Source: Bacillota bacterium (GTDB lineage: Bacteria > Bacillota > Sulfobacillia > JAJYWN01 > JAJZPE01). From it: a DNA stretch of 64,000 bases. Of the stretch, positions 24,265-51,611 are shown piece by piece. Positions within the stretch are counted from its first letter, which is position 1, and each line of letters opens with the position of its first letter. The stretch spans positions 62,001 to 126,000 of the forward strand of contig JAJYMC010000033.1 in assembly GCA_021787335.1 (NCBI GenBank), given 5' to 3'. A program made the translations under genes and the position numbers. The notes under the pieces are model-generated. The model did no database searches, was not told the origin of the DNA, and saw only the letters and a list, made by a program, of their open reading frames with translations.

Positions 24265-24927
24265 CTAGGTTTTTCTCACCAGCATCGCCAGCTTCCGATT
24301 GATGGCATCGAGCGTGGCCCGAGCAACGGCCTCCCGCTCGTCGTCCTTGACCAGCGACGAGCCGACGAAGTTCTCCTCGCCGAGGCTGGTCATCAGGGTC
24401 AGGACCACGTTGACGACGCGGCGCCCGGCCACGTTGAGCGAGACGATGTCATCGATAGAGAACATCGGGGTGCTCTTGAAATACTGCTCGACCGCGGCCA
24501 CGGTGGCCGAGGCCACCAGCCGCAAGCGACCGGTCGCGGAATTGGCCCCGCTCGCCCCGCCCTCGTAAACGTCGCCGGACAGCTCCAGCTGGACGTGACA
24601 GTCGGCGCGGGGGCCCGTGGTGCTGAAGCTGACCGCGCCCAGCTTGACGCGGGCCTGTTCGAGGGGCACCTCACCCTGGTCCTGGACCTGGGCGATGCTT
24701 ATCTTCTTGTGGTCAACGGCCAACCCGAACTGGGTCATGAAGGCCGACTCCACGTCGCGGACAATCTGCTTGGGGCTGCGCCCCGACCCGGCCAGGACGT
24801 GAATCTCCTCGATGCTCCCCTGGGCGTCGGTGATCACCCGGGTCGAAATCACGTCACGTATCTGCCCGATGAGGTGTTCGTATTCCTTGACCCGTTCACG
24901 CGTCCCGCCGAAATCTTCCCTGCTCAT
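24265..24927 (-). CDS. Conserved protein of unknown function
   Basis: A 220-residue cytosolic protein that I cannot assign. The N-terminal part (I-R-D-V-I-S-T-R-V-I-T-D-A-Q-G-S-I-E-E-I-H-V) looks like a small alternating alpha/beta unit, followed by S-P-K-Q-I-V-R-D-V-E-S-A-F; the C-terminal part (about 105-215) has regular hydrophobic strands and ends in a helix. No signal peptide or membrane segment is seen. ATG 24927 has GAGGAG six bases upstream. It stands alone between two intergenic regions. Confidence 0.65.
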   Translation of the reverse strand: MSREDFGGTRERVKEYEHLIGQIRDVISTRVITDAQGSIEEIHVLAGSGRSPKQIVRDVESAFMTQFGLAVDHKKISIAQVQDQGEVPLEQARVKLGAVSFSTTGPRADCHVQLELSGDVYEGGASGANSATGRLRLVASATVAAVEQYFKSTPMFSIDDIVSLNVAGRRVVNVVLTLMTSLGEENFVGSSLVKDDEREAVARATLDAINRKLAMLVRKT

Positions 24928-25062: not shown

Positions 25063-26238
25063 TCAAAACCGCATGATTCGACGAGCTTCGCGGGCCTCGG
25101 CCGCCAGGACGTTCTCGGCGAGGATCCATAGACCGCCGGATACCAGGGCGTGCCCGCCCAAGATGACCGGCATGGGGGCCTCGACAGCCGCCCGGGTGAA
25201 CTCCCTCACCTTGGGGTTCTTGACCAGGTCGTACCGGCCAAGGTCGGACTGGAAACGGTCCCAGTCGGAGACCTCCAGCTTCCAGTGGGCGAAGAGGACC
25301 CGGCTGTCGAAGACGACCGCCTGGCAGAAGGTGCTCAGATAGCGGAAGAAGGCCTCCGGCCCCTCCTGGTCGATGAGGTGGCCGACGAGGGAGATGACCT
25401 CGCCCCGCTCCTGACGGCCGAGGGCCTTCATCCCCCGCTCTTCGGAGAAGACGCGGAAGCGGCACATGAAGTTCATGTTGAGGAAGGCCCAGACCGGTGG
25501 GCCGACTCGGCCGATCAGAGCGACTTCGGCCCCGATGACCCCGAACAGTCCGCGCAGCTTGACCAGCTTGTCCAGGTCGAAGTCAAACCGCTTGAGGGCC
25601 TCCTTGGTGCGGGCCCCGGCGGTCTCCTGCATGGATAGGATGGCCAGGTCCGTCGGCGTATCGAGGTCGAAGTTGATCCAGGCCGAGTTGGGCATGAGCA
25701 CGCGTCGCAGGCCGGCGTTCTCCCGCAGGATATAGCCCAACTCGTTGTCGTTGGCCGGGGGCGGCACCTCGGACAACGCCGAAGCCGGCGTGAACCCGAC
25801 CATGTCGGGGGACTGGACGTTGTTGAGGACGACGATGTTCTTCTCCTCACGCAGCCGGTCGGCCACCCAGGTGACCTCCTTCCGGCGGATGAGGGGGGCG
25901 GCGGGGCCGCCCATGTAGAAGACGTTGGTCAGGCCGTGGGCCTTGACCGTCTGAAGCAGTCGGCGGCCGAAATGGAAGGGCCCGTCGCTGAAATCGACCG
26001 TCGCCCCAAGCCGCTCGGCCTCGCCGGCCAGGTCCCGGTAGTTGGTGCACAGGATGATCTCGTCGACGCCGGGAGCCCCGTGCAGCTTCTCGACGTTGTC
26101 CAGGACCACCGCCTGGCGCACGGCGTTGATGTCTTCCTCGACCGGGGTGCGGGCCGCTCCGCCCTCGAATATGACTACACTGACCTTCTCTTCAGGCAAG
26201 GCTTTCAGCCGCTCCTTTAGCCGCCCGATTGGGGTCAT
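25063..26238 (-). CDS. Nucleotidyltransferase-like protein
   Basis: A 391-residue protein whose first 200 residues look like a nucleotide-sugar or MobA-type transferase fold (D-E-I-I-L-C-T-N-Y-R-D-L near residue 60, Y-M-G-G-P-A-A-P-L near 108, D-L-D-T-P-T-D-L-A near 195). The typical N-terminal G-x-G-x-R loop is not evident, so substrate and activity are open. The C-terminal half is a mostly helical domain ending in G-G-H-A-L-V-S-G-G-L-W-I-L-A-E-N. ATG 26238 has no visible SD, and a TATAGT box lies only a dozen bases upstream, so the mRNA may be almost leaderless. Confidence 0.55.
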   Translation of the reverse strand: MTPIGRLKERLKALPEEKVSVVIFEGGAARTPVEEDINAVRQAVVLDNVEKLHGAPGVDEIILCTNYRDLAGEAERLGATVDFSDGPFHFGRRLLQTVKAHGLTNVFYMGGPAAPLIRRKEVTWVADRLREEKNIVVLNNVQSPDMVGFTPASALSEVPPPANDNELGYILRENAGLRRVLMPNSAWINFDLDTPTDLAILSMQETAGARTKEALKRFDFDLDKLVKLRGLFGVIGAEVALIGRVGPPVWAFLNMNFMCRFRVFSEERGMKALGRQERGEVISLVGHLIDQEGPEAFFRYLSTFCQAVVFDSRVLFAHWKLEVSDWDRFQSDLGRYDLVKNPKVREFTRAAVEAPMPVILGGHALVSGGLWILAENVLAAEAREARRIMRF

Positions 26239-26332: not shown

Positions 26333-26863
26333 CTAGATCTCAGGTTCGATCAGCCCGTAATCCCCGTCACGACGGCGGTAGACCACGTTGACCTTCTCGG
26401 TCTCGGCGTTGGCGAAGACGAAGAAATCATGGCCGACCAGGTTCATCTGCATGATGGCCTCGTCGATGGCCATCGGCTTCATGGTGAAGTGCTTCGTCCT
26501 GACCACGCGGAACGGTTCGTCGGCATCCTCGCCATGGCTCTCTTCAGGAGTGGGCGGTCTGAGGCCCTCGCGGCGGAACTTGCGGTAGATCTGCGTCCGG
26601 TACTTCTCGACCTGTTTCTCGAGCTTATCCACGACCAGATCGATGGAAGAGTACATGTCGCCAGTGGCTTCCTCGCCGCGGAGGATGATCCCGTTGACCG
26701 GGATGGTCACCTCGACGATTCGGCGGTCCTTCTCGACCCCCAGGGTCACCTGCGCCGAGGCGAGGTTATCGAAGTACTTCTCGATCTTCCCGACCTTCTT
26801 CTCGACGTACTCCCTCATGGCCGGAGTGACTTGGACGTTCTTCCCCCTCAGGGCGATTTGCAT
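26333..26863 (-). CDS. hpf: Ribosome hibernation promoting factor, long form
   Basis: Long HPF dimerises 70S ribosomes into inactive 100S particles in stationary phase or stress. The 176-residue protein has the N-terminal S30AE domain (I-A-L-R-G-K-N-V-Q-V-T-P-A-M-R-E-Y-V to about residue 100), a charged linker and the C-terminal dimerisation domain (T-K-H-F-T-M-K-P-M-A-I-D-E-A-I-M-Q-M-N-L-V-G-H-D-F-F-V-F). ATG 26863 gives the standard N-terminus; GGGGGAT lies 12 bases upstream. An upstream in-frame start at 26950 would add 29 atypical residues. In many Firmicutes hpf sits directly before secA-prfB; here those are 4.5 kb away. Confidence 0.95.
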   Translation of the reverse strand: MQIALRGKNVQVTPAMREYVEKKVGKIEKYFDNLASAQVTLGVEKDRRIVEVTIPVNGIILRGEEATGDMYSSIDLVVDKLEKQVEKYRTQIYRKFRREGLRPPTPEESHGEDADEPFRVVRTKHFTMKPMAIDEAIMQMNLVGHDFFVFANAETEKVNVVYRRRDGDYGLIEPEI

Positions 26864-26997
26864 CCGGTCACTGATCCCCCTCTCATTCGCTCGTTCCAGT
26901 CTACGCACTAGTATTCCCCTGAGGCCCGGAAAATCCTTCCGCGATAGCATCCGTGGCCTTTCAAGGCCGGCCGTCGCCGGGACGGCCCGGGCCCGAA

Positions 26998-27050: not shown

Positions 27051-27254
27051 CTACTGGACCTTGACGACGTTCGCCGCCTGCGGACCGCGGGCGCCCTCGA
27101 CGATCTCGAACTCGACCTTCTCGCCTTCAGTGAGGGTCTTGAACCCTTCCATCTGGATGGCCGAGAAGTGCACGAACACGTCGCCACCGCCGTCTTCCCG
27201 TTCGATGAACCCGTAACCCTTCTCAGCGTTGAACCACTTCACCTTACCAAGCAT
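27051..27254 (-). CDS. Cold-shock domain protein
   Basis: A 67-residue single-domain CSD protein that binds single-stranded RNA/DNA and acts as an RNA chaperone. RNP1 K-G-Y-G-F-I and RNP2 V-F-V-H-F are intact, and the start M-L-G-K-V-K-W-F-N is canonical. GGGAGG lies upstream of ATG 27254. A strong promoter (27315-27343) gives a leader of about 55 bases with a GTGGCT...AGCCAC hairpin, possibly a thermosensitive or autoregulatory 5' UTR. The DnaA-box cluster lies about 100 bases further upstream. Confidence 0.96.
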
Positions 27255-27314: not shown

Positions 27315-27343
27315 ACTATAGCATGCGTCCCCCTAAAAGTCAA
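27315..27343 (-). promoter_or_regulatory. Strong promoter of the cold-shock gene
   Basis: TTGACT (27338-27343), a 17-base spacer and TATAGT (27315-27320) on the minus strand; one of the best sigma-A matches in the window. Confidence 0.8.
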
Positions 27344-27439
27344 ACACGGTGGGCCTTTCCGCCCCTTCTGTCGACCTCCGCCGGGTCGTTGTCGAGCCCC
27401 GGGCGAACCGAATCGATGCTTTTGTTGTTAACCACCGAC

Positions 27440-27528
27440 TGTGGATAGCCGGGCGTGTGGATAGTGTGGATAACCCTGTTGATAAGGCGTCAAATCCGCG
27501 TTTGCGGGTGGGGATAGCCTGTGGATTG
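27440..27528. promoter_or_regulatory. Cluster of DnaA boxes
   Basis: Five copies related to TGTGGATAA (reverse of TTATCCACA) lie in one orientation within 89 bases: TGTGGATAG at 27440 and 27456, a perfect TGTGGATAA at 27465, TGTTGATAA at 27477 and TGTGGATTG at 27520. A weaker copy lies near 27510. The region is AT-richer than its surroundings. No dnaA, dnaN or gidA gene is in the window, so this is more likely a DnaA-binding or titration site, or DnaA control of neighbours, than the main origin. Confidence 0.65.
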
Positions 27529-27601
27529 TAGGATAGTGTCGGATGATGGAGAGCGTCGCAGGCGGGCCGCTGTCGAACATCGACGACCCACGCCGACCGT
27601 C

Positions 27602-28582
27602 CTAGGGGCGAACGACCAGGTTCGGCGGGGTCTCACCGCGAAGGGCGGCCAGGAGGTTGGAGGCCGCCATGACGGCCATCCGGTCGCGCGTGGCCCGGCT
27701 GGCGCTGGCGATGTGCGGGGCCAGGACGACGTTCCGCAGACGACAGAGGGGGTGCCCCGGCGGGAGGGGTTCCTCCTCGAAGACATCCAGGCCGGCGCCG
27801 AAGATGGTCCCCGCGGCCAGGGCTTCCGCCAAGGCCTGCTGGTCGACGACACCGCCGCGGGAAGTGTTGACGAGGACGGCCGTGGGCTTGCACAGGCGCA
27901 GTCGGCCGCCGTCGATGAGGTGACGGGTAGCCGGCGTCAACGGCACGTGGAGACTGATGATGTCGGCCCGCCGGAGGAGTTCGTCGAGAGGTACCGAGCC
28001 GCTCTCCGTGGGGTCGTGGAAGATGACCTCCATCCCGAACCCGGCGCCGCGCCTGGCCACGGCCTGCCCGATGCGGCCGTAGCCGACGACGCCAAGGACC
28101 GCGCCATGGATGTCGACGCCCAGGAGACCCTGGGGCTCCCAGGTCCGCCAGCGTCCCGACCTGACCTCTTCGTCGCCCTCGACGATCCGCCTCGCCGCGG
28201 CCATGATCAGGGCCCAGGCGAAGTCGGCGGTGGTCTCGGTCAACACCCCCGGGGTGTTGGTGACGATGACCCCACGCCGGCGCGCCTCGCCGAGGTCGAT
28301 GTTGTCGAACCCGACGGCGTAGTTGGCGATGACCTTCAGGCCCGGGGCCGCGTCCATGACCGCCGCATCCATCCGCTCGGTGAGGAGGGAGAGGATGCCG
28401 TCGACGCCCTCCGCCGCCCGGATGACGTCCTCCCGCCCGGGCACTCCGGATTCAGCCAGCACGTGATAGTCGCAGACGGGCTCGAGGAGGTCGAGCCCGG
28501 CCTGCGGGATGCGCCGGGTCACCAGGACCCTCCAGCGGCGGTCGCCGCCCTTTCCCGTCCCCTGTGGCTCTGCGTCTTTCAA
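27602..28582 (-). CDS. D-isomer specific 2-hydroxyacid dehydrogenase
   Basis: A 326-residue NAD(P)-dependent dehydrogenase of the glyoxylate/hydroxypyruvate reductase or phosphoglycerate dehydrogenase group. The Rossmann motif is [10 protein letters not shown] near residue 162; the catalytic R, E and H appear in [17 protein letters not shown] and L-A-P-H-I-A-S-A. Sequence resembles glyoxylate reductases more than SerA because no ACT domain follows; the substrate is not certain. The start is TTG 28582, overlapping the comF stop by four bases. Confidence 0.88.
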
Positions 28583-34550: not shown

Positions 34551-34703
34551 AAACCTCTCATCTTCTCAGAACTGGGTGTGTCCCGGAAGCCCGGGCCCAC
34601 TAAGACCACTTCTGCCGGAGTTGGCACCGCTGCGCCGCAGGCGCGACGCCGGTTGCCGAGGAGTCATCAGGCCGGTCCCTCGTCCTTCTCTTCATAAGAG
34701 TGG
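34551..34703 (-). promoter_or_regulatory. SAM-I (S-box) riboswitch
   Basis: The minus strand shows the S-box consensus in order: CTTATGAAGAGAAGG, a GAGGGACCGGCCTGATGA block, CTCGGCAACC, GGTGCCAACTCC and GAAGATGAGAGG. It is preceded by a good promoter and followed by a terminator, and controls the MetE-like gene and metK. Confidence 0.95.
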
Positions 34704-51466: not shown

Positions 51467-51495
51467 GCCGCGTCGTGCTGGTCTTGGTCTTTAGC

Positions 51496-51588
51496 GGCCG
51501 CTTCCCTACGCTGGTATTATCCAGATCAGGTTCGAAGGGTTGGAGGCCAAGCCTCCTTTCAGCTCCATAGAGCACCCCTAGCGGATTC
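51496..51588 (-). promoter_or_regulatory. TPP riboswitch (THI box)
   Basis: The minus strand reads AGGGGTGCTC, then GCTGAAAGGAGG, ACCCTTCGAACCTGATCTGG and ATACCAGCGTAGGGAA, the conserved THI-box blocks in order. It controls thiT-thiN. Confidence 0.96.
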
Positions 51589-51611
51589 GGTCCGGTTCAG
51601 TTGTTGCCTTA

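Follow-up and report, generated by a model that had tools for sequence, protein, structure and literature searches.

A conserved array of DnaA boxes upstream of csp and hpf in Bacillota, a candidate site outside oriC for limiting the initiation of replication

The DnaA-box clusters of Bacillus subtilis are often regarded as minor and, to our knowledge, the Bacillota are thought to control DnaA via protein partners and not via DNA loci. The gcp-ydiF region of B. subtilis is a strong, ATP-preferring DnaA site, with an apparent Kd of 0.15 uM for ATP-DnaA and 0.33 for ADP-DnaA and with 16-fold more DNA obtained with ATP-DnaA at 55 nM; it is among the eight strongest DnaA regions of this species, in which hpf falls outside the top 20 (PMC4447404). 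With regard to function, the joint deletion of six B. subtilis clusters leads to early initiation according to two reviews (PMC13220808, PMC5295017), though one of them also judges that the clusters have no significant role in initiation (PMC5295017). In E. coli, DnaA favours boxes that lie 2-3 bp apart in vivo (PMC11317965).

The array described here is located within a window of 64,000 nucleotides, by which the whole stretch of analysed DNA is meant. Its boxes sit in a 347-bp spacer that extends from the end of a 2-hydroxyacid dehydrogenase gene to csp, and they read on the minus strand, which is also the coding strand of csp and hpf. The surrounding features are the following.

27602..28582, minus strand: D-2-hydroxyacid dehydrogenase gene, on the upstream side of the array; the spacer is delimited by its 3' end
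27315..27343, minus strand: promoter-like TTGACT-17-TATAGT, directed towards csp, the second hexamer preceded by TG (consensus match only)
27051..27254, minus strand: csp, cold-shock domain protein, 67 aa
27004..27028, minus strand: terminator-like hairpin after csp (consensus match; 1 found against 0.8 expected)
26333..26950, minus strand: hpf, ribosome hibernation-promoting factor, long form

The true start of hpf may be an ATG near 26863, and its transcript is probably separate from that of csp, because the terminator-like hairpin follows csp. The promoter-like site (1 found against 0.3 expected) is not overlapped by any of the boxes, the nearest of which is 97 bp away. No known RNA element of Rfam was detected at the spacer, and the window contains no tRNA gene; elsewhere in it, a SAM riboswitch (34555-34700) and a TPP riboswitch (51486-51589) are present on the minus strand. 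Two proteins without a Pfam family, encoded at 25063-26238 and 24265-24927 on the minus strand, recur beside hpf in many relatives.

Between 27440 and 27528, six DnaA boxes resembling TTATCCACA are found on the minus strand inside 89 bases, one of them perfect, three with one change and two with two changes. The sequence-only reading of this DNA had described five boxes in one orientation within 89 bases, one perfect and four with one or two changes; the orientation, the span and the perfect box were recovered, but the boxes number six, and the imperfect ones five. The individual boxes, together with a weaker one, are as follows.

27520..27528, minus strand: outermost box CAATCCACA, 11 bp beyond the upstream box; recurs in several relatives
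27509..27517, minus strand: upstream box CTATCCCCA, starting 32 bp before box 1; relatives repeatedly carry a box at -31/-32
27477..27485, minus strand: core box 1 TTATCAACA, spacing common across the phylum
27465..27473, minus strand: core box 2 TTATCCACA, perfect, 3 bp after box 1
27456..27464, minus strand: core box 3 CTATCCACA, abutting box 2
27440..27448, minus strand: box 4 CTATCCACA, starting 16 bp from box 3
27423-27431: weaker box TTAACAACA

The core can thus be written as TTATCAACA-3 bp-TTATCCACA-0 bp-NTATCCACA, that is, three boxes with fixed spacing. It lies in an AT-richer pocket, as had been proposed, with a GC content of 51% at 27420-27540 against 67% for the window. Elsewhere in the window, 89 bp hold at most 2 same-strand boxes (<=2 mismatches). 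Moreover, no more than 3 boxes per 89 bp arose in any of 300 Markov simulations of 64 kb, and the same ceiling held for 3000 local-composition simulations and for 20000 shuffles of the 347-bp spacer. The window as a whole shows a slight excess of boxes (66, against 51.2 +/- 6.8 expected) and the genome none (164 at <=1 mismatch, compared with 170 matches of the reversed pattern), so that the signal resides in the clustering. Perfect boxes are scarce, with 5 in the 3.5 Mb of this genome: one by dnaA, one in the hpf-side array, one past gcp and two elsewhere.

The conservation of the array was examined in 61 relatives picked by the Hpf protein alone, 58 of which gave a match, and the best-scoring 30 of these 58 loci were compared. 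At least three boxes within 89 bp upstream of hpf and on the hpf strand were present in 16 of these best 30 loci, compared with 1, 1 and 0 in three control stretches of the same loci, and the spacing of 12 then 9 bp was kept in 14 of them. The commonest distances between boxes in the relatives are 9, 12 and 21 bp; in close relatives the core is preceded by a box at 31-32 bp, and in several of them by another one 11-12 bp farther. Absence of the boxes in close relatives had been named beforehand as an outcome that would speak against the cluster, and the genomes examined from the same genus, family and order (G001, G002 and G003) all contain it.

When the core was searched for directly, allowing <=3 mismatches in its 26 positions and with the reversed pattern as control, it was found in 28 of the 61 relatives, and the reversed pattern in 0 of 61. 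The distance to a downstream hpf is 138-1001 bp for 25 of the 29 cores in these relatives, of which 22 share the hpf strand and 3, all from one family, are inverted; the other 4 are on a contig that differs from that of the hpf match. Among these four, the cores of G012 and G028 and one copy of G023 are near csp or near frames read as flagellar, and neither csp nor flagellar-like frames were found near the core of G052. In a sample of the phylum the core was present in 194 of 398 genomes, often twice, compared with 1 of 398 both for the reversed pattern and for a pattern in which each gap is one base longer. No core within 3 mismatches was detected in 33 of the 61 relatives and in 204 of the 398 phylum genomes, which indicates that it is either not indispensable or diverges. 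Furthermore, named bacterial and archaeal genomes were scanned for the exact degenerate core, which yielded at least 119 loci, with Paenibacillus, Desulfosporosinus and Syntrophomonas among the over-represented genera. Of the 119 loci listed, 115 belong to Bacillota, 1 to Actinomycetota and 1 to Armatimonadota, and 2 carry no phylum name.

The neighbours of these 119 loci point to two main addresses, with 45 loci at csp/hpf and 41 at gcp/tsaD, beside 3 at flagellar genes or comF, 2 at dnaA/dnaN and 28 at other genes. Paenibacillus, in which the array is inverted, accounts for 11 of the 45 csp/hpf loci among the matches listed. The 70 loci of the phylum search were added to the 119, the two sets not being independent, as some genomes occur in both. 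In this combined set, all 62 gcp arrays converge on the 3' end of gcp, mostly from 13-330 bp away, and the 76 csp/hpf arrays comprise 63 upstream in the same direction, 12 upstream and inverted, and 1 placed otherwise. Some arrays lie 1.4-2.6 kb from csp with genes in between (eight loci), and others are found upstream of hpf where no csp was detected. At one locus, L156, TsaD and an ABC-F protein were confirmed. The three-box core also occurs in the dnaA-dnaN spacer at L123, L195 and L288, which implies that oriC and outer sites can share one arrangement. Two further recurrent addresses were noticed: one is beside what we take to be argininosuccinate lyase and nicotinate phosphoribosyltransferase genes (L264 and L265, from two genomes of one family), and the other, in gut Clostridia (L106, L141, L150, L168, L183 and others), is beside genes that are presumably AIM24-like and lytic-transglycosylase-like.

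The two main addresses are frequently occupied in the same genome. Among 20 two-core genomes, which were our own choice from the phylum-search genomes listing two cores, 13 have one core at gcp and one upstream of csp-hpf, and 7 depart from this rule (G094, G117, G306, G063, G434, G437 and G072). The genome of the window itself carries a second cluster, located about 58-130 bp past the 3' end of gcp/tsaD and kept in its two nearest relatives.

contig C7:94813-94885 (L013 1314-1385), opposite strand: own-genome gcp cluster, four boxes

In this genome and its class, the boxes of the gcp site follow the order 9-12-42/43 instead of 12-9, so the hpf site and the gcp site of this genome are not duplicates of a single sequence. 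Of the best 30 among the 60 genomes with gcp, 9 have at least three boxes at this site, and it is within this group that the order is found, in whole or in part.

With regard to chromosomal position, both sites lie mostly in the origin-proximal half, and their boxes are oriented oppositely with respect to the fork. In genomes assembled in one or two contigs, the distance from the hpf site to dnaA ranges from 6.6 to 38.7% of the chromosome (10 sites) and that from the gcp or ydiF-gcp site from 14.8 to 35.1% (9 sites). For two additional hpf sites, distances of about 4% and 22% were obtained. The boxes point along the fork at 10 of 10 hpf sites and against it at 9 of 9 gcp sites, a constancy that is expected if the orientation of the genes is kept. 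The two sites are on opposite arms in all three genomes in which both could be placed (G169, G259 and G291). No fixed distance to oriC was found among the placed hpf and gcp sites, whose offsets vary widely; in this they differ from the E. coli control loci datA and DARS, for which a fixed distance is reported (PMC4585315, PMC5010248).

Taken together, we regard it as rather probable that the array is one of two old extra-oriC DnaA-box clusters that assemble and hold ATP-DnaA and thereby limit initiation. Its identity as a DnaA-box cluster is well supported at the level of the sequence, since several boxes are clustered outside oriC and the core is kept in relatives (28 of 61) and across the phylum (194 of 398). 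The proposed likeness to the Bacillus DnaA-box clusters is borne out by the phylum-wide core spacing, which is common to the gcp site, and by the gene context of the latter, which is that of a B. subtilis cluster with measured DnaA binding (PMC4447404). In this organism, DnaA, whose ATPase and DNA-binding domains are both present, would be expected to bind at the predicted hpf-side site, and the output would presumably be titration rather than nucleotide switching or regulation of csp and hpf. DnaA may load head-to-tail on the three-box core; with box starts at 0, 12 and 21 bp and a further box near -31/-32, several boxes would fall nearly on one helix face, the spacings near 21, 31.5 and 43 bp being arithmetically close to whole helical turns. 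ATP-DnaA assembled cooperatively at the hpf site would be held away from oriC, and the passage of the fork would double the number of sites, so that free DnaA could become limiting for initiation.

A first alternative is that DnaA acts here as a transcription factor which couples the state of replication to the expression of csp, hpf or both, a role that appears unlikely, if still worth weighing. Of the 76 hpf-context loci, 75 do have the array on the upstream side of csp or hpf, usually by 100-600 bp, a promoter-like site lies 97 bp from it in the window, and DnaA of B. subtilis controls sda and other genes (PMC4447404). Nevertheless, the array is inverted in 12 of the 76 loci and in 3 of 25 within the class, genes are inserted between it and csp in the eight loci with gaps of 1.4-2.6 kb, and in 62 of 62 cases the partner site is located beyond the 3' end of gcp. 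Moreover, the boxes do not overlap the promoter-like site, and csp is apparently terminated before hpf. Control of the cold-shock gene by DnaA, which the sequence-only reading had raised, is the less well supported proposal: it is favoured by the usual upstream position and disfavoured by the inversions, the inserted genes, the loci devoid of csp and the partner past a gene end.

A bolder and similarly tentative proposal, to which we would give about one chance in five, is that the hpf and gcp sites form an ancestral Bacillota pair and are the counterparts of datA and DARS, that is, geometry-coded and nucleotide-sensitive DnaA assemblies that time initiation. If true, a phylum thought to be devoid of such loci would possess an ancestral datA/DARS-like pair. 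The narrower claim that the site alters the nucleotide state of DnaA, either like datA through ATP hydrolysis or like DARS through ADP release, and constitutes together with the gcp site the missing switch of the Bacillota, seems somewhat less probable still. It would agree with a geometry that is fixed rather than a matter of box number (1 of 398 once the gaps are lengthened), with the existence of two defined loci and with the strong preference of the B. subtilis gcp-ydiF site for ATP-DnaA (PMC4447404); in addition, a 2026 review states that it is unknown whether B. subtilis possesses regulators balancing ATP- and ADP-DnaA (PMC13220808). However, datA and DARS2 work with IHF, which B. subtilis lacks (PMC5295017, PMC13220808), and the known regulators of B. 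subtilis act on DnaA assembly and not on its nucleotide.

A second or relict replication origin, the next candidate, is very improbable and was rejected. The type of box and its clustering are as in oriC, and a few genomes do have the core pattern in the dnaA-dnaN interval. However, contig C23 of this genome carries a full oriC, in which dnaA is flanked by boxes on either side and followed by dnaN, and no match to the DnaA family was detected on C55, the contig of the window. Locating dnaA had been suggested as a check, and the outcome agrees with the earlier remark that the window, which lacks dnaA, does not offer the typical context of an origin. Furthermore, no AT-rich unwinding element was found next to the boxes of the array, the lowest GC over 40 bp being 42.5% in the hpf spacer versus 30% in the dnaA-dnaN spacer, and the GC skew across the window shows no clear turn. 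Finally, a chance build-up of AT-rich 9-mers, in keeping with a box excess that is weak in the window and absent from the genome, has a practically negligible probability and was discarded, being contradicted by the simulations, the gap-lengthened control pattern, the phylum-wide spacing and the recurrent addresses.

The preferred reading of the array as an extra-oriC DnaA-box cluster suggests that the bacterial cell cycle has here an old control point, largely overlooked so far. Extra-oriC DnaA-box clusters are already known; what appears to be new here is the core fixed across the phylum, the hpf address and the pairing with gcp, none of which was found in a literature search that itself missed the main papers on the B. 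subtilis clusters. A fixed three-box unit at two addresses throughout the phylum implies an old age for loci of this kind and, probably, selection on them; what is kept is the spacing of the boxes and not their number alone. Many natural variants thus become available for asking what gives a site its preference for ATP-DnaA, a determinant that could not be defined from the few regions of the B. subtilis study (PMC4447404).

In comparison with the known systems, the DnaA-box clusters of B. subtilis resemble the array in having many DnaA boxes outside oriC, but the hpf/csp address is not among their listed strong regions. The gcp-ydiF cluster corresponds to the second address described here, a likeness that is one of gene context, and a similar context is found for the arrays past gcp in Ornithinibacillus, Virgibacillus and Paucisalibacillus. 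The datA locus of E. coli is likewise non-coding, contains DnaA boxes, lies outside oriC and reduces DnaA activity, as proposed for the array, but it has another gene context and works with IHF and ATP hydrolysis (PMC5295017). DARS1 and DARS2 of E. coli are also compact sets of DnaA boxes at defined chromosomal places; they reactivate ADP-DnaA, whereas gcp-ydiF of B. subtilis prefers ATP-DnaA. Lastly, the double DnaA box of E. coli, with its spacing of 2-3 bp (PMC11317965), resembles core boxes 1 and 2, which are 3 bp apart on one strand, and differs in that, in the array, a third box abuts without a spacer and creates a three-box unit.
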